From NCBI GenBank assembly GCA_018052825.1, contig JAGPMN010000012.1, positions 1 to 36,326 of the forward strand: a stretch of 36,326 nucleotides of DNA. Reading direction: 5' to 3'. Made by a program: the position numbers and the translations under genes. Positions 27,386 to 36,326 of this stretch are shown piece after piece (position 1 is the first letter of the stretch; every line of letters starts with the position of its first letter). The stretch is from Methanothrix sp. GTDB lineage: Archaea > Halobacteriota > Methanosarcinia > Methanotrichales > Methanotrichaceae. The notes under the pieces were generated by a model. It was not told the DNA's origin and searched no databases. It saw only the letters and a program-made list of their open reading frames with translations.

Positions 27386-27607
27386 CTAAACCTTATGCCC
27401 TATCGCGAAGCGCCTCATAACCTTATCGATCTGGACCCTGGCCTCGTCGCCCACTTTGGTGTCGGCAACGAAGATCACAAATCCCTCGACCCGGGCTATG
27501 CCGTCGCCCTCTCTGGCAATATCCTCGATCTTGACATCATACTCTCTTCCGACCTCTACTGGAGCAGGTGTGCTCATAGAGGACCGGTCTGCATTGAAAT
27601 TTGCCAT
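27386..27607 (-). CDS. TRAM-domain protein, copy 1
   Basis: The 73-residue protein is almost entirely a TRAM domain (VEVGREYDVKIEDIAREGDGIARVEGFVIFVADTKVGDEARVQIDKVMRRFAIG), a small OB-like beta-barrel that binds RNA. Stand-alone archaeal TRAM proteins act as RNA chaperones, with cold-related roles reported in methanogens. ATG 27607 is preceded by GGTGAG. It lies 28 nt after the neighbouring TRAM gene, from which it differs at only a few positions within the domain. The N-terminal 14 residues are unrelated to those of copy 2. Confidence 0.9.
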   Translation of the reverse strand: MANFNADRSSMSTPAPVEVGREYDVKIEDIAREGDGIARVEGFVIFVADTKVGDEARVQIDKVMRRFAIGHKV

Positions 27608-27635
27608 AACATCTCACCGTTCCCCAGAAAAGCAA

Positions 27636-27890
27636 TCAGATCTTATGCCCGATGGCGAAACGCCTCATAACCTTGTCGATCTGGATCCTGGCCTCGTCGC
27701 CCACATTGGTGTCGGCAACGAAGATCACGAAACCTTCTACTCGGGCAATGCCGTCGCCTTCTCTGGCAATGTCCTCGATTTTGACGTCGTACTCTGTTCC
27801 AACTTCTACGGGAGCAGTTGGAGCGGACCCTCCAGAGGATGATCCTTCCTGGCTTCTAAACAACTCTTCACCGTCCTTTGCGAAAACCAT
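27636..27890 (-). CDS. TRAM-domain protein, copy 2
   Basis: This is an 84-residue paralogue of the next gene downstream. A Ser/Gly-rich N-terminal extension (about 1-26, with SQEGSSSGGSAPTAP) leads into a TRAM domain nearly identical to copy 1 (VEVGTEYDVKIEDIAREGDG, then ADTNVGDEARIQIDKVMRRF). It is presumed to bind RNA as a chaperone. It is the first gene of the pair and is transcribed away from the RNA m5C methyltransferase gene, sharing an AT-rich promoter region near 27918-27934. Confidence 0.9.
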   Translation of the reverse strand: MVFAKDGEELFRSQEGSSSGGSAPTAPVEVGTEYDVKIEDIAREGDGIARVEGFVIFVADTNVGDEARIQIDKVMRRFAIGHKI

Positions 27891-31015: not shown

Positions 31016-31053
31016 GTACGTTCTCCTGGCATTGGCGGCACATGAAGTATCGT

Positions 31054-31075
31054 TCTATCGCGATAGATTTATATC
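31054..31075 (+). promoter_or_regulatory. Palindromic operator and TATA box of the arsR operon
   Basis: TCTATCGCGATAGA (31054-31067) is a perfect 14-bp palindrome. It abuts the TATA box TTTATATC (31068-31075), centred about 29 bp before the arsR ATG at 31101, which makes the mRNA nearly leaderless. An ArsR dimer bound here would cover the TFB/TBP site. A direct repeat ATAGATT (31064-31070, 31079-31085) flanks the TATA box. Autorepression is inferred from position and family habit. Confidence 0.65.
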
Positions 31076-31100: not shown

Positions 31101-31445
31101 ATGTCCGACAGATCCGTCTCCGACCTGCGCATCAAGATCTTGAGCGCCCTCTCCGATCCCATCCGCCTGGAGCTGCTGGAGTATCTCTCCGGCGGCGAGC
31201 GCTGCGTCTGCGAGATATTGCCCGCCTTTCACCGCTCCCAGTCCACCATCTCCAAGCACCTCTCCATACTCTATGAGGCCGGCATACTGGAGAGAAGGAT
31301 CGATGGCAAGAGAACCCTCTATCGCATAAAGGACCCTGGGGTATTCGATCTGATTCGCATGGTGGACGGCATGGCCCTGCAGCAGATATCGCAGCTGGCT
31401 GAGGCTGGACGAGTTCTGGAGAGGTCTCTGAAGAGCGGGAGATGA
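31101..31445 (+). CDS. ArsR/SmtB-family metal- or thiol-responsive repressor
   Basis: The 114-residue winged-helix protein shows the ArsR pattern: LRIKILSALSDPIRLELLEYLS, then the inducer-sensing GERCVCEILPAF (Cys35 and Cys37, the CVC motif of As(III)/Sb(III) or soft-metal sensors), the recognition helix SQSTISKHLSILYEAGIL, and the wing RRIDGKRTLYRI. It heads an operon with a COG0701 permease and a CxxC protein; its stop overlaps the permease start in ATGA. A palindrome at its promoter is the probable operator. The ligand is inferred to be arsenite or another thiol-reactive species. Confidence 0.9.
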   Translation: MSDRSVSDLRIKILSALSDPIRLELLEYLSGGERCVCEILPAFHRSQSTISKHLSILYEAGILERRIDGKRTLYRIKDPGVFDLIRMVDGMALQQISQLAEAGRVLERSLKSGR

Positions 31446-32524
31446 CATTCACGGCGATCATGGCTGCCCTGCAGGCGGGCCTTTACACGCTCCTCGGATA
31501 CCTGTCGGCACATGTTTTGACATGCCTTGTGCCTGCCTTCTTCATAGCCGGTGCCATTGCAGCTTTGCTGGAAAAGGAGACTGTGCTCAGGTACTTCGGG
31601 GCAGACGCCCCCAGGTGGCTCTGCTACAGCGTGGCTGCCACCTCCGGAACCATACTGGCGGTGTGCAGCTGCACCATCCTGCCCGTGTTTGCAGGCATAG
31701 AGAAGCGGGGCGCTGGCATCGGCCCGGCAACGGCCTTCCTCTTCTCCGGGCCGGCCATAAACCTCATGGCAGTTATACTCACTGCAAGGGTGCTGGGACT
31801 TGATCTTGGCATTGCCAGAGCAGTGGCGGCTGTGGGCATGGCCGTGATCATCGGCCTGATCATGGCTGCCATATTCGAGAGGCCTCAGGAAGAGTGCGGC
31901 GCCAGTGCTGCCATATCTGCTCTCCAGGCTGATCCCGATCCCCCGCAAGGGGGCCGTCCCGGATATGCTACAGGCTTTTTCATAGCCGTCCTGGTTGCAG
32001 TGCTGCTGGCAGCCACAACGAGCGCTTTAGAGCCTCTGCCCAAGGCCGGCATGGTAGCTGCGCTGATGATAACAGCCGTATTTCTGATGATGAAATACTA
32101 CCAGCCAGAGGAGAGGGAGGCGTTCCTCGGCGAAACCTGGTGGCTGGCCAGGAAGATCTTTCCACTGCTGGTCGTGGGAACATTTATAGCCGGCATCATC
32201 GGCTACCTACTGCCAGTGGAGTGGATTCGCACCATCTTCGGCACAAGCAGCCTTCTGGCCTGCTTTGCGGCTTCGGTGATAGGCTCCCTGCTATACATGC
32301 CAACGCTCCTGGAGGTGCCCATCGTCGGCAGCCTTTTCGGCTACAGCAGCGGTATCACAGCCGCAGGCCCGGCGCTATCCCTGCTTTTAGCCGGCCCCTC
32401 CCTCTCCCTGCCCAGCATAATCGTCATCACCAGGATCATCGGCCTTAAGAAGGGGGGCGCATACATCTCCCTTGTGGTTTTGATGTCGACCCTGGCGGGA
32501 GCGGTCTACGGGGCGGTGGCATGA
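31442..32524 (+). CDS. COG0701 (ArsP/YraQ-type) permease
   Basis: The 360-residue integral membrane protein has about eight to ten hydrophobic helices in two similar halves separated by a polar loop (about 140-180). Family motifs are VCSCTILPVFAGIEKRGAGIGPATAFLFSGPAIN in the first half and LLYMPTLLEVPIVGSLFGYSSGITAAGPALSLLLAGPSLSLP in the second. The CSC pair in the first half lies in the likely transport path. Members of this family include ArsP, an exporter of organoarsenicals, and homologues linked to thiol compounds. Position between an ArsR sensor and a redox-active CxxC protein supports export of arsenic or a sulfur/thiol compound. The substrate is not shown by sequence. Confidence 0.87.
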   Translation: MTFTAIMAALQAGLYTLLGYLSAHVLTCLVPAFFIAGAIAALLEKETVLRYFGADAPRWLCYSVAATSGTILAVCSCTILPVFAGIEKRGAGIGPATAFLFSGPAINLMAVILTARVLGLDLGIARAVAAVGMAVIIGLIMAAIFERPQEECGASAAISALQADPDPPQGGRPGYATGFFIAVLVAVLLAATTSALEPLPKAGMVAALMITAVFLMMKYYQPEEREAFLGETWWLARKIFPLLVVGTFIAGIIGYLLPVEWIRTIFGTSSLLACFAASVIGSLLYMPTLLEVPIVGSLFGYSSGITAAGPALSLLLAGPSLSLPSIIVITRIIGLKKGGAYISLVVLMSTLAGAVYGAVA

Positions 32525-32542
32525 AAAAATGTGGTGGTAAAA

Positions 32543-32779
32543 ATGGTGAAGATCGAGGTCATGGGAACAGGCTGTGCCAAGTGCAAAAGCCTGCTCAAGA
32601 ATGTGGAGAAGGCGGTCGCAGAATCTGGCATCTCCGCAGAGGTGATCAAGGTGGATGGCATCCAGGAGATAATGGAGCGGGGTGTGATGATGACCCCTGC
32701 ACTTTACATCGATGGCAAGTCCGTGATGGTGGGCAGAACTGCCACGGTCGAAGAGCTGAAAAGGCTTATAAAAAGGTGA
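32543..32779 (+). CDS. Small redox-active disulfide (thioredoxin-fold) protein
   Basis: The 78-residue protein is of the archaeal MTH895-type thioredoxin-like family: MVKIEVMGTGCAKCKSLLKNV with active Cys11-x2-Cys14, VIKVDGIQEIMERGVMMTPALYIDGKSV with the cis-Pro loop, and KRLIK at the end. ATG 32543 is chosen because GGTGGT lies 4 nt upstream. It starts 18 nt after the permease and is typically found next to COG0701 permeases, to which it probably delivers or removes electrons or thiols in the cytoplasm. Confidence 0.9.
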   Translation: MVKIEVMGTGCAKCKSLLKNVEKAVAESGISAEVIKVDGIQEIMERGVMMTPALYIDGKSVMVGRTATVEELKRLIKR

Positions 32780-32838
32780 TGCGAAGAGGGATGGACATGA
32801 AATCGATGAAGGAAGCGAAGAAGGCAGGCTGCGCCTAA
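32779..32838 (+). CDS. Possible 19-codon ORF coupled to the redox protein
   Basis: ATG 32779 overlaps the preceding stop (TGATG) and has AAAAGGTG directly before it. The product MRRGMDMKSMKEAKKAGCA is Lys/Met-rich with one Cys near its end. Tiny Cys-bearing genes do occur next to such permease/redox pairs, but the length makes chance likely. An A-run follows immediately after the TAA. Confidence 0.25.
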   Translation: MRRGMDMKSMKEAKKAGCA

Positions 32839-32892
32839 AAAAGGAGCCGGCCGCCTGAGATTGCGATCCTGAGAATTGTGGTGGTATAAACT

Positions 32893-33921
32893 ATGCATTC
32901 GCTAAACTTGGGATTTTCATTTATCAGCATAGTCTTATTGATGCTTCTGGCCCTATCCCAGAGCGCCTCCGCCGGAGCGGAATGCGCCTCTTTAGGCGGC
33001 GGTTGCGACGATGGCGGCTGGGACCCCATGGCCAAGCTTGATGAGATTGGAAACACCAGCGCCGACCAGCAGCCGGCCAATACAAAGTGGCCGGCAAAGT
33101 CAAGGGAGCAGAGGTGGAACATGAGCGCTTCCACAGAGAGCTCTTCTGCCAGAGAAGGCACAGAGGATGCAGCAGCTGAACAGCAGGCGATCACTGTGCG
33201 AAGCGATGAGGCTGCGGCCATTCTCGCCCCGCTTGATGCCGTAAACGGCGCAGATATCCTGCTGGATGTGAGCGAGAACTCGAGCAGCCATATAGCCGGC
33301 TCAGTGGTCATACCTTACATGCAGTTTAACGAGCAGCCCGGCCTTCTCAAGAACCTCTCCGAGATCACAGAGATCCTCGGCGACGCCGGCATCTCCCGCG
33401 AGGACTCGGTTGTCATATACGGCGAGTGCCTGCCATGCGGAGGAGGGCCGTCTGTGGCGACATACGTCTACTGGATGATGAAGGGGCTGGGCCATGAGAG
33501 GGTAAGGGTCCTGGACGGGACGGCTGAGGACTGGCAGGCATCCGGGCGGGTGGTTACGTCAGACGCAGCTGTTTTAGCAGGCAAGACATACTCTGCCGCC
33601 CCGACTGCAAACTACACAGCCACATATGAGATGGTGAATGGCGGAGGGGTGCAGATTGTCGATGCCAGGACGGTGCAGGAGTTCGGCTCGGGCAGCATCC
33701 CCGGATCGATAAACATTCCCTATGCAAGCGTTCTCGACGGAAATAAGATCAAGAGCGAGGAGAAGCTGGAAAAGATATTCGGGCTGCTGGATAAAGGCCA
33801 GAGTGTTGTGGTCTTCACCAACACTGGCATGAAGGCCTCTGTGGTCTGGTTTGCCCTGGAGATGATGGGATACGACGCCAGGCTCTACAGCTACCAGGAC
33901 TGGGTGGCAAATCAAAATTGA
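32893..33921 (+). CDS. Secreted double-rhodanese protein with atypical active sites
   Basis: An N-terminal signal peptide (FSFISIVLLMLLALSQSASA) is followed by a low-complexity Ser/Glu spacer (about 30-100) and two rhodanese domains (about 100-220 and 230-342). The first has ILLDVSENSSSHIAGSVVIPY and VVIYGECLPCGGGPSVATYVYWM, placing a CxxC pair (Cys179, Cys182) at the loop. The second has QIVDARTVQEFGSGSIPGSINIPY, but its loop is FTNTGMKAS, with Thr309 where catalytic Cys is expected, so it looks inactive. GGTGGT precedes ATG by 7 nt. It likely handles sulfane sulfur or disulfides outside the membrane. Co-transcription with the arsR operon is plausible (54-nt gap). Confidence 0.8.
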   Translation: MHSLNLGFSFISIVLLMLLALSQSASAGAECASLGGGCDDGGWDPMAKLDEIGNTSADQQPANTKWPAKSREQRWNMSASTESSSAREGTEDAAAEQQAITVRSDEAAAILAPLDAVNGADILLDVSENSSSHIAGSVVIPYMQFNEQPGLLKNLSEITEILGDAGISREDSVVIYGECLPCGGGPSVATYVYWMMKGLGHERVRVLDGTAEDWQASGRVVTSDAAVLAGKTYSAAPTANYTATYEMVNGGGVQIVDARTVQEFGSGSIPGSINIPYASVLDGNKIKSEEKLEKIFGLLDKGQSVVVFTNTGMKASVVWFALEMMGYDARLYSYQDWVANQN

Positions 33922-33957
33922 TTGCTGATGAAACGGGGGGGGCAAAATGCTCCGCAG

Positions 33958-34422
33958 TCATCTGCCGAAGGTCTGAGATATCCATTCTTTTATCTCATCC
34001 CTGGCTCGCCTGAAGGCAAAAAGCTGTTCCTCCTCACTTCCCACAGCCGCGGCAGGGTCATCGAAGCCTCTGTGCATGACCTTCCTGGCTTTGGGCGATC
34101 TGCTGGCAATCTCAAGGCTCGTGCTGCATATGGGGCAGGCCTGCCTCGCCCGGTCGCAGACGGTGACAGCCAGGTCGAATATGATATCTCCCAGCTCTTG
34201 ATATGTCTTGGAGCGCTGGCCCGAGATGTCGATGCCGATCTCCCGCATAGCCTGCACAGCGCGGCGATCGACGGATGTTGCGACAACTCCGGCGCTGTAG
34301 GCCTCATACCGATCTCCATACATGCTCCTCAGCAGCCCCTCGGCCATCTGGGAGCGGGCAGAGTTGTGGGTGCATAGAAAGAGCACCTTCTTCTTTTGAG
34401 CGTCTGATAAAGCGGATTTCAT
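33958..34422 (-). CDS. arsC: Arsenate reductase, low-molecular-weight phosphatase type
   Basis: This enzyme reduces As(V) to As(III) through a P-loop cysteine and a disulfide relay fed by thioredoxin. The 154 residues show the loop VLFLCTHNSARSQMAEG with Cys17, the YSAGVVATSVDRRAV segment, and VTVCDRARQACPICS, where paired cysteines match the relay of thioredoxin-coupled ArsC. The FDDPAAAVGSEEEQLFAFRRARDEI region carries the general-acid Asp. Its ATG lies 9 nt after the ccdA-fusion stop, so the two are co-transcribed. It converges with the secreted-rhodanese gene and belongs with the ArsR and permease genes functionally. Confidence 0.92.
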   Translation of the reverse strand: MKSALSDAQKKKVLFLCTHNSARSQMAEGLLRSMYGDRYEAYSAGVVATSVDRRAVQAMREIGIDISGQRSKTYQELGDIIFDLAVTVCDRARQACPICSTSLEIASRSPKARKVMHRGFDDPAAAVGSEEEQLFAFRRARDEIKEWISQTFGR

Positions 34423-34431
34423 CTGATCATT

Positions 34432-35859
34432 TCACCACAGCTTGAATCCAAAGTACCTCACAGCATAAATCAATCCGATCCCGATTACCGCCAGCCCGAA
34501 GGCCATTGTGATATATTTTCCTGCAGCGATATACTTCTCCCCGATCCACCCGCCCACAGCTCTGGAGAACGTGGCGATAGGAATCACCGGCACTCCGTGG
34601 CCGACTCCGAAGACAAAGAGCATCAATCCGCCTCCCACGGCTGTTACATTCTGGGATATGAGCCAGATGAGCACCGGAAAGACGAGGGAGACGGCGCAGG
34701 GGGCCCAGCCCATAGCGAAGAATACTCCCAGGGCAAAAGCTCCGATGAAGGCCGAGTAGTGGAAGAGGCCCATTGAGAATCGGACCAGCCTCTCCATCAA
34801 TCCCATCTTCACAGGATCATTCTCTCCAGAAAGAGCATCACGGCTGCCTCTGCCGAGATAGATGCGCGAGCTGACCGGCTCGACGATCTCGCCGATGGGC
34901 TTTATGATATTTATGCCCAGAACGATCATCAGCATCCCGGCGGCCAGGTCGAAGAAGCTGGCCTGGCGGATGAAAACGCCAATGTCCGAGAGAAACAGCC
35001 CCACCACGAAGAAGACGGCAGCCATTCCCAGTGTGAAGGCCACGCCGATCATGAAGCCCTCCTTAGATGCCGAGGCGCTCTTCCTGAGATACTCCTCTTT
35101 TCTTCTGCTGGTCATGACGTAGGAGAACATGGCCAGCAGCAGGGCAACAGAGCAGGGTGACAGCGAAGTTACAATGCCCAGGAAGAACATGCCCAGGTAA
35201 TTGACATCCTCTCTGGAGGCCACACCTTTGAATCCTGAGGCTTTTGCTTTTGCCTCTCCCCTATCCATCTCTTTAAGGCCCTTATAAAGTGCCTCAGCGC
35301 TCTGTACTCCGTCTATCTCTCCCTTGCCCAATTGATAGACGTGATAAAGGCCCGCCACATTTCCTTCTTTGTCGACCAGGATCAGGGTGGGGTTGGCAAA
35401 TCCATCCTCAAAGGTTGAGTAGCCGATATACTTGCCGGTTATTGTATAGGGCTCAAAATCCTCAATCCAGGGCCAGGTTATATTGATGTTCCACCACTCC
35501 TTAGCCAGAGCCGGACCGCTCTTCGAGTATGGATTCTTTCTGATGTTGAGTGTAACGATATTGATCTCTGGATGCTCTTTTGCCAGCAGGGAGAGCTGGC
35601 CGGTCTGGGCACTCAGAACATGCTCGCACTCCCGGCAGAGTGGATTTTCGATATTTGTGATATGAAGAAGGAGAGACTCTCCTCGATAGTCGCTCAGAGA
35701 TAGGCTCCTGCCCTGACAGTCCACTGCCTGAAAATCAGGGGCCAGTGCCTTTGTCTCCTGACTGAAAGCCTGGCAGCTTACGAGAAAGAGGATGAAGCAA
35801 AGGACGGTAAAAAGTGTGATAGACCCTGAAATTAGGGATTTTTCGCATTTTATTGTCAT
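34432..35859 (-). CDS. TlpA-like/CcdA fusion: extracytoplasmic thiol-disulfide exchange protein
   Basis: The 475-residue chain begins with a signal/anchor segment holding a lipobox-like LVSC (Cys29), then a thioredoxin-fold TlpA/AhpC-like domain (about 35-195; APDFQAVDCQGRSLSLSDYRGE) whose CxxC is Cys75-x2-Cys78 in NPLCREC. A polar linker leads to a CcdA-type domain (about 218-475) with six or more helices and the two membrane cysteines in TSLSPCSVALLL and GWAPCAVSLVFPV. CcdA carries electrons from cytoplasmic thioredoxin to the outside, and the fused domain would be the outer acceptor. It is a natural DsbD-like arrangement. It lies upstream of arsC and downstream of a truncated thioredoxin-like gene. 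Confidence 0.87.
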   Translation of the reverse strand: MTIKCEKSLISGSITLFTVLCFILFLVSCQAFSQETKALAPDFQAVDCQGRSLSLSDYRGESLLLHITNIENPLCRECEHVLSAQTGQLSLLAKEHPEINIVTLNIRKNPYSKSGPALAKEWWNINITWPWIEDFEPYTITGKYIGYSTFEDGFANPTLILVDKEGNVAGLYHVYQLGKGEIDGVQSAEALYKGLKEMDRGEAKAKASGFKGVASREDVNYLGMFFLGIVTSLSPCSVALLLAMFSYVMTSRRKEEYLRKSASASKEGFMIGVAFTLGMAAVFFVVGLFLSDIGVFIRQASFFDLAAGMLMIVLGINIIKPIGEIVEPVSSRIYLGRGSRDALSGENDPVKMGLMERLVRFSMGLFHYSAFIGAFALGVFFAMGWAPCAVSLVFPVLIWLISQNVTAVGGGLMLFVFGVGHGVPVIPIATFSRAVGGWIGEKYIAAGKYITMAFGLAVIGIGLIYAVRYFGFKLW

Positions 35860-35889
35860 ACAAGCAATCCCGCTATGTCAGGCTCTCGC

Positions 35890-36201
35890 TCAGGAATTCC
35901 AGTCAGCAGAGTTTTCATCGTATTTGCTTATGGCGTCCTCCACATAGCTCTTGATCCAATTCTCACCCGTGACCTCATCTGTGCTATGCCAGACTGGAAC
36001 GACATCTCCATCGAAATCGGGTGCAAGTGTGAGCACAACAGTTAGAGGCACATACATGGTGCCGCCGTTAGGATCGTATGCCTGCAAGGCCTCCTCAGAC
36101 CTTGAATCATCGCCTTCGGCGCTTATCAAGAAAACGTTTATCTGGCCGTTGAATTCTTCTGTGATATTCTGCACGGCTTCCGTCTGAGGTGCACAATAAT
36201 C
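35890..36201 (-). pseudogene. Thioredoxin-like gene truncated at its 5' end by an IS3-family element
   Basis: The frame reads in from the IS boundary as DYCAPQTEAVQNITEEFNG and continues for 103 codons. The motif CAPQTEAV, the strand INVFLISAEGDD, the cis-Pro-like MYVPLTVVLTLAPD and the closing helix WIKSYVEDAISKY are what one expects of a thioredoxin-fold domain. The second Cys of the probable CxxC pair remains, while the signal peptide and first strand are missing. A GTG at 36174 is a possible internal start but would leave out the active cysteine. It is the first gene of the ccdA-fusion/arsC operon, so the insertion may also have changed their expression. Confidence 0.7.
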
Positions 36202-36326
36202 TGGACTGCACCCCTGATAGTAGACAAATAGTTAAGCAACAGTATTTAAAGCAACCTCCATTTCGAACTTCTCCGGAGATCTATAGCCAAGAGCTGAATG
36301 CAGCCTCTTCTTGTTGTACACCTTCT
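36202..36326 (-). mobile_element. IS3-family insertion sequence, right end (partial, runs off the window)
   Basis: The terminal sequence, read on the plus strand, is TGGACTGCACCCC (36202-36214), a typical IS3-family TG...CA end with a run of C. Inside it lies the C-terminus of the transposase gene. The rest of the element, the other inverted repeat and the target duplication are beyond the window. Confidence 0.75.
36232..36326 (-). CDS. IS3-family transposase OrfB, C-terminal fragment at the window edge
   Basis: The visible residues read VYNKKRLHSALGYRSPEKFE and then MEVALNTVA before a TAA (36232-36234 on the plus strand). YNxxRLHSALGYRSPxxFE is the hallmark C-terminal motif of the DDE integrase domain of IS3-family OrfB transposases. 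The start lies outside the window. The stop is about 30 bp inside the element's terminus, as usual for this family. Confidence 0.9.
   Translation of the reverse strand, partial: KVYNKKRLHSALGYRSPEKFEMEVALNTVA

Follow-up and report, generated by a model that had tools for sequence, protein, structure and literature searches.

A probable arsenic-resistance island with a candidate thiol conduit in Methanotrichaceae

Among the methanogens that live on acetate in anoxic soils, sediments and digesters, Methanothrix is a major one. We analyzed a stretch of 36,326 nucleotides (hereafter, the window) from Methanothrix sp., which corresponds to the whole of contig C9 in a 1.8-Mb assembly, and considered seven adjacent genes at its right end that bring together arsenic-resistance and thiol-redox proteins. 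Because the window is a whole contig, the island formed by these genes is truncated at its right end. A first-pass annotation, made from the sequence alone, had assigned the seven genes to named families; the open reading frames (ORFs) are at the positions given and family analysis confirms the assignments, the last gene (gene 7) being incomplete. The locus contains the following features:

31048-31073, + strand: candidate operator (palindrome TATCGTTCTATCGCGATAGA), followed by a TATA-box-like TTTATA; matches a consensus kept in relatives
31101-31445, + strand: ArsR/SmtB repressor with a CVC motif (C35, C37)
31442-32524, + strand: ArsP-type COG0701 permease (C75 and C77 in VCSC)
32531-32779, + strand: small cytoplasmic thioredoxin-like protein (CAKC)
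32893-33921, + strand: double rhodanese-like protein, predicted to be secreted (C179, C182)
33958-34422, − strand: arsenate reductase (ArsC) of the thioredoxin type, with the low-molecular-weight protein tyrosine phosphatase (LMW-PTP) fold (C17, C89, C96)
34432-35859, − strand: TlpA-like domain (CREC) fused to a CcdA/DsbD membrane domain (C75, C78, C236, C388)
35890-36201, − strand: 3′ part of gene 7, coding for a secreted CxxC thioredoxin-like protein and ending at a junction
36202-36326, − strand: end of an IS3-type insertion sequence (IS; terminal inverted repeat and orfB end KRLHSALGYRSPEKFE...), then contig end

Proteins and regulatory elements of the locus

Four genes on the + strand (ArsR to rhodanese) converge on three genes on the − strand (ArsC, TlpA-CcdA and gene 7). 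Predicted redox or metal-binding cysteines were checked in six of the seven proteins and every one is kept in relatives; gene 7 retains part of its motif.

The TlpA-CcdA fusion scores above the cut-off of PF02683 (DsbD_TM; 36 bits against 27), whereas AhpC-TSA stays just under its own, and the membrane domain matches the structure of CcdA (5VKV). C75 and C78 of the TlpA domain together with C236 and C388 of the CcdA domain (in SPC and WAPC) are all present in 20/20 homologs. The protein thus has what is expected of a CcdA/DsbD thiol conduit, namely, one cysteine in each half of the membrane domain and a CxxC extracytoplasmic domain. The same genome encodes a second pair of gene 7 and TlpA-CcdA (G000:C26:23626-25487, L165), the CcdA of which is 58% identical and has no ars neighbors.

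The rhodanese-like protein has an N-terminal hydrophobic, signal-like helix, and PF00581 matches it in two stretches. Its AlphaFold model displays a tandem rhodanese fold, with a predicted local distance difference test score (pLDDT) mostly >90 over residues 101-340, and Foldseek retrieves thiosulfate sulfurtransferases (3HWI, E-value 7e-18). Domain 1 contains CLPCGGG, of which C179, C182 and G183 are invariant in relatives (alignment A2), whereas the active loop of domain 2 (TNTGMKA) has no cysteine, TNTG occupying the place where CRxG is expected. The protein is therefore a non-canonical sulfurtransferase: it shares the tandem fold with thiosulfate sulfurtransferases (3AAX, 1UAR), but is secreted, has Thr in place of the catalytic Cys of domain 2 and carries a CxxC inserted into the domain 1 loop. 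A plasmid search with this protein returned only distant sulfurtransferases.

The thioredoxin-like protein exceeds the cut-off of TIGR00412, by name the MTH895/ArsE family (99 bits against 62), its CxxC is conserved in 25/25 homologs, and the nearest solved structure is that of MTH895 (1ILO). An alternative start at ATG 32543 gives the 78-residue form usual in relatives. A small Cys-terminated ORF downstream of it was rejected as not conserved. The same genome encodes a member of the ferredoxin:disulfide-reductase family (PF02943), a possible electron source for the conduit. ArsC (PF01451) matches the structure of ArsC 1JL3 (E-value 4.7e-27), with which its cysteine triad, present in 16/16 homologs, is aligned. 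The CX5R loop and the spacing of the triad (72 and 7) are those of thioredoxin-linked, pI258-type enzymes.

ArsR scores 83.3 bits in NF033788 (cut-off 55), contains the winged-helix domain and keeps CVC in 51/51 homologs; weak similarity to the BigR and TsoR models was also detected. The repressor is predicted to leave its operator upon binding trivalent arsenic, As(III), or methyl-As(III). The permease scores 228 bits in PF03773 (ArsP_1/COG0701; cut-off 32) and its membrane cysteine pair is conserved in 37/37 homologs, whereas in the SaoE model (NF040736) it reaches 91 bits, below the cut-off of 325; sequence search found no matching solved structure. By analogy with ArsP, which exports methyl-As(III) (PMC6205960), it is predicted to export trivalent organoarsenicals. 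Close to ArsC, several relatives (L124:7453, L125:7907, L126:8091, L132:12001, L142:4510) encode another COG0701 permease, which is shorter, has an ArsR of its own and is SaoE/SO_0444-like, under the cut-off.

The candidate operator is a 20-bp palindrome immediately 5′ of the TATA box, common to most ArsR-ArsP operons of relatives, where it is mostly located 54-57 bp upstream of the ArsR start. The consensus of relatives is matched without mismatch at a single site of the window and nowhere in 100 shuffles. This motif was not found upstream of gene 7/CcdA or of ACR3, where a different palindrome is located. The second palindrome (about TATCGAAATnnTTyGATATG) lies near the ArsR-ACR3 promoter, at L163:667-689 as well as 5′ of ArsR-ACR3 in L138, L151, L154 and L158. 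Since ACR3 operons bear a palindrome other than that of ArsP operons, the two probably respond to different ArsR proteins.

Gene 7 has no Pfam match. It belongs to a family of secreted CxxC proteins and is represented here by a 3′ fragment, with the IS3-type insertion falling inside the CxxC codons known from homologs. Contig C39 (L163) starts with the other end of such an element (bases 1-126, comprising the orfA start and the matching terminal inverted repeat), followed by the 5′ half of gene 7. Both flanks carry ATC, a 3-bp target duplication. These sequences suggest that C9 and C39 adjoin at this repeat. Beyond the 5′ half of gene 7, C39 encodes ArsR and ACR3, the latter scoring 437 bits (cut-off 283), as well as an ArsR-FeS protein and DsrF- and DsrH-like proteins. 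Relatives with uninterrupted contigs have the same order, gene 7 being divergent from ArsR-(rhodanese)-ACR3. The methyltransferase ArsM of this genome is on contig C18, and both ACR3 and ArsM exceed curated cut-offs here and in relatives.

Clustering and distribution in Methanotrichaceae

To assess the conservation of this arrangement, we used each protein or family model as a query against 50 Methanotrichaceae genomes, which represent 11 genera, and tallied the distances. The counts are lower bounds because many contigs are short, and those for rhodanese refer to the matches listed. Gene 7 directly adjoins TlpA-CcdA in 47/47 genomes (expected 0.3). ArsP lies within 4 kb of thioredoxin in 27/42 genomes (expected 0.2), within 12 kb of rhodanese in at least 21/44 and within 25 kb of CcdA in 13/43 (expected 1.9). 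CcdA, in turn, has ACR3 within 12 kb in 20/35 genomes (expected 0.8) and ArsC within the same distance in 13/42, and ACR3 is near rhodanese in at least 14/36 (expected 0.2). With chance expectations across gene pairs of about 0.2 to 1.9 genomes, the clustering of the island parts is not due to chance. The first-pass annotation had proposed a neighborhood check of co-occurrence across methanogens. Co-occurrence holds within Methanotrichaceae, the only family for which it is shown, and breaks down there in genus g9.

Other genera also show the convergent layout, often accompanied by ArsM, and the closest instance is found in Candidatus Methanocrinis natronophilus (L138/L185). Thirteen genomes have ArsM no more than 5 kb from ArsC or ArsP. 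In relatives, the complete operon reads ArsR-ArsP-(CBM96-like)-(glutaredoxin-DsbD)-thioredoxin-(AhpD)-(DGC)-rhodanese-rhodanese, and the version in the window is reduced. In relatives, the gene of a CBM96-like secreted protein (L127:4412-4984 and L166:7302-7931) separates ArsP from glutaredoxin-DsbD; in the genome of the window, the CBM96-like/glutaredoxin-DsbD module resides on contig C62, together with two rhodaneses.

Profile searches of 238 genomes of the same class (the 50 Methanotrichaceae and 188 others) revealed the TlpA-CcdA fusion in 47/50 Methanotrichaceae and 0/188 other genomes, and the rhodanese in 50/50 and 1/188, respectively, the latter match being weak. The unusual part of the island is thus a near-family-specific add-on, consisting of the TlpA-CcdA fusion and secreted double rhodaneses lacking the usual catalytic cysteine.

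Comparison with known systems

In known ars operons composed of arsR, arsP, acr3, arsC and arsM (PMC6205960, PMC9213503), the repressor, organoarsenical permease, arsenite exporter, arsenate reductase and methyltransferase are close together, as here. By contrast, no published account that we found places TlpA-CcdA, gene 7 or a secreted rhodanese in such operons, and the island parts of this strain are spread over three contigs. ArsEFG (Chen et al. 2019, cited in PMC9144182) likewise combines a thioredoxin of the ArsE family (NCBIfam name) with a DsbD-type membrane protein; here, however, CcdA scores far under the cut-off for ArsG, a TlpA domain is fused to it, and no ArsF-like gene was seen. 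The Tso selenoprotein operon (TsoB rhodanese/DsbD and ArsR-type TsoR; names from NCBIfam, PMC13188914) has a similar mix of rhodanese, DsbD-type and ArsR-type parts, but our rhodanese reaches 15 bits against the TsoB cut-off of 805, and there is no selenocysteine, the rhodanese and CcdA genes having no in-frame TGA. Because the model cut-offs are not reached, we assign the island to neither the Tso operon nor ArsEFG.

A parallel to the predicted electron route comes from Streptococcus pneumoniae, where CcdA supplies electrons from the cytoplasm to surface thioredoxin-like proteins and on to a surface acceptor (CcdA-Etrx-MsrAB2; PMC3914529). The acceptor there is a methionine sulfoxide reductase and no arsenic genes are involved. 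In Methanosarcina, a thioredoxin gene adjoins ccdA (PMC6262447).

Elsewhere in the window (27386-27890, − strand), two adjoining short ORFs have almost identical C-terminal halves and probably encode tandem TRAM-domain proteins.

Proposed pathway and competing explanations

Taken together, these results suggest that the window probably covers the left end and the middle of an arsenic-resistance island conserved in Methanotrichaceae, with a candidate inside-to-outside thiol conduit; a conduit of this kind had been suggested by the first-pass annotation. Its description of the locus as an unnamed redox and metalloid island is borne out insofar as no named system fits the whole gene set; the locus is better viewed as an arsenic-resistance island with a redox add-on, because the wider context comprises ACR3, ArsM, ArsC and several ArsRs. 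The cysteines needed for the proposed electron route are conserved: CAKC of thioredoxin, SPC/WAPC of CcdA, CREC of TlpA, CxxC of the gene 7 family and CLPC of the rhodanese.

Most safely, the locus can be read as an arsenic-resistance island that combines arsenate reduction by ArsC, optional methylation by ArsM, and export of arsenite by ACR3 and of methyl-As(III) by ArsP. Under such a scenario, ArsR would occupy the palindrome just 5′ of the TATA box until trivalent arsenicals bind to CVC and free it. ArsC would reduce arsenate with electrons from thioredoxin, and arsenite would leave through ACR3 (C39) or, after optional methylation by ArsM (C18), in the methylated trivalent form through ArsP. 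The cytoplasmic thioredoxin, perhaps ferredoxin-fed via ferredoxin:disulfide reductase, would also reduce CcdA, from which electrons could reach the TlpA domain of the same protein and, outside the cell, gene 7. The latter two may maintain the rhodanese CxxC and further surface thiols in the reduced state, or else serve to resolve persulfides or adducts of arsenic with thiols. Judging from the conserved motifs, electron flow from thioredoxin through CcdA and TlpA/gene 7 to the rhodanese is plausible; the conduit may serve the rhodanese and in this way may help against arsenic. In this strain, gene 7 is broken by the IS, so its step may be lost or assumed by the second gene 7-CcdA pair (C26).

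Several observations weigh against an arsenic island with its own conduit. In genus g9 (6 genomes) the genes are mostly scattered, with 0/6 for every inter-operon pair (for rhodanese, among the matches listed). CcdA, gene 7 and rhodanese also have second copies distant from ars genes, and therefore they may mainly serve thiol redox in general. The CcdA domain reaches 48 bits (E-value 1.1e-12) in the ArsG model NF040495, against a cut-off of 200, and the AlphaFold model of TlpA-CcdA (pLDDT 48) was too poor to be used. For ArsC, the best NCBIfam model (TIGR02691) gives 116 bits against an equivalog cut-off of 174; ArsC is therefore filed only as working like that equivalog, not as a member. Finally, in ACR3-linked rhodaneses CFSC is kept in genus g8, and CxxC is lost in the genus of the window.

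An alternative is that the locus handles sulfur rather than arsenic, with a sulfide- or persulfide-sensing ArsR governing a sulfur-compound permease, rhodaneses and DsrE/F/H proteins that deal with polysulfide or thiosulfate. Consistent with this, the islands encode thioredoxins and DGC as well as rhodaneses and DsrE/F-like proteins, and ArsR is weakly similar to BigR and TsoR, but the same islands hold ACR3, ArsM and ArsC with a full Cys triad, and the rhodanese lacks the canonical catalytic Cys, making such a system unlikely. It is also quite doubtful that thioredoxin and CcdA constitute an ArsE/ArsG-like pair, in which the DsbD-type protein itself exports organic arsenicals without electron transfer: the thioredoxin does exceed the MTH895/ArsE cut-off and the CcdA domain does match ArsG, yet far below the ArsG cut-off, and the fused extracytoplasmic CREC domain, the four redox cysteines and the CxxC partner gene 7 are conserved. 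Least probable is an arsenic unit limited to ArsR-ArsP-thioredoxin, ArsC and ACR3, with CcdA, gene 7 and rhodanese as surface-thiol housekeeping genes nearby by chance, since, even if almost all genomes encode the latter, frequently more than once and also away from ars genes, and they are scattered in g9, proximity of CcdA to ACR3 and of ArsP to rhodanese is about 25-fold more frequent than expected in two genera, with the genes often on the same strand in apparent operons.

A bolder version of the arsenic-resistance island, which we regard as a long shot, is sulfur-coupled arsenic detoxification: a dedicated transmembrane thiol relay of thioredoxin, CcdA and TlpA/gene 7 would drive the secreted rhodanese-like proteins with CxxC, and these would turn arsenite or methylarsenite, once exported, into thiolated or protein-bound forms outside the cell, with DsrE/F/H-like carriers supplying sulfur inside.

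To our knowledge, extracytoplasmic redox and sulfur pathways in archaea have been little studied. If the proposed assignment is correct, an arsenic island with its own thiol conduit would tie the defense of archaea against arsenic to redox and sulfur chemistry outside the cytoplasm. The rhodanese-like family, almost confined to Methanotrichaceae within the class and with its cysteines shifted to a CxxC in domain 1, offers a clear, testable target.

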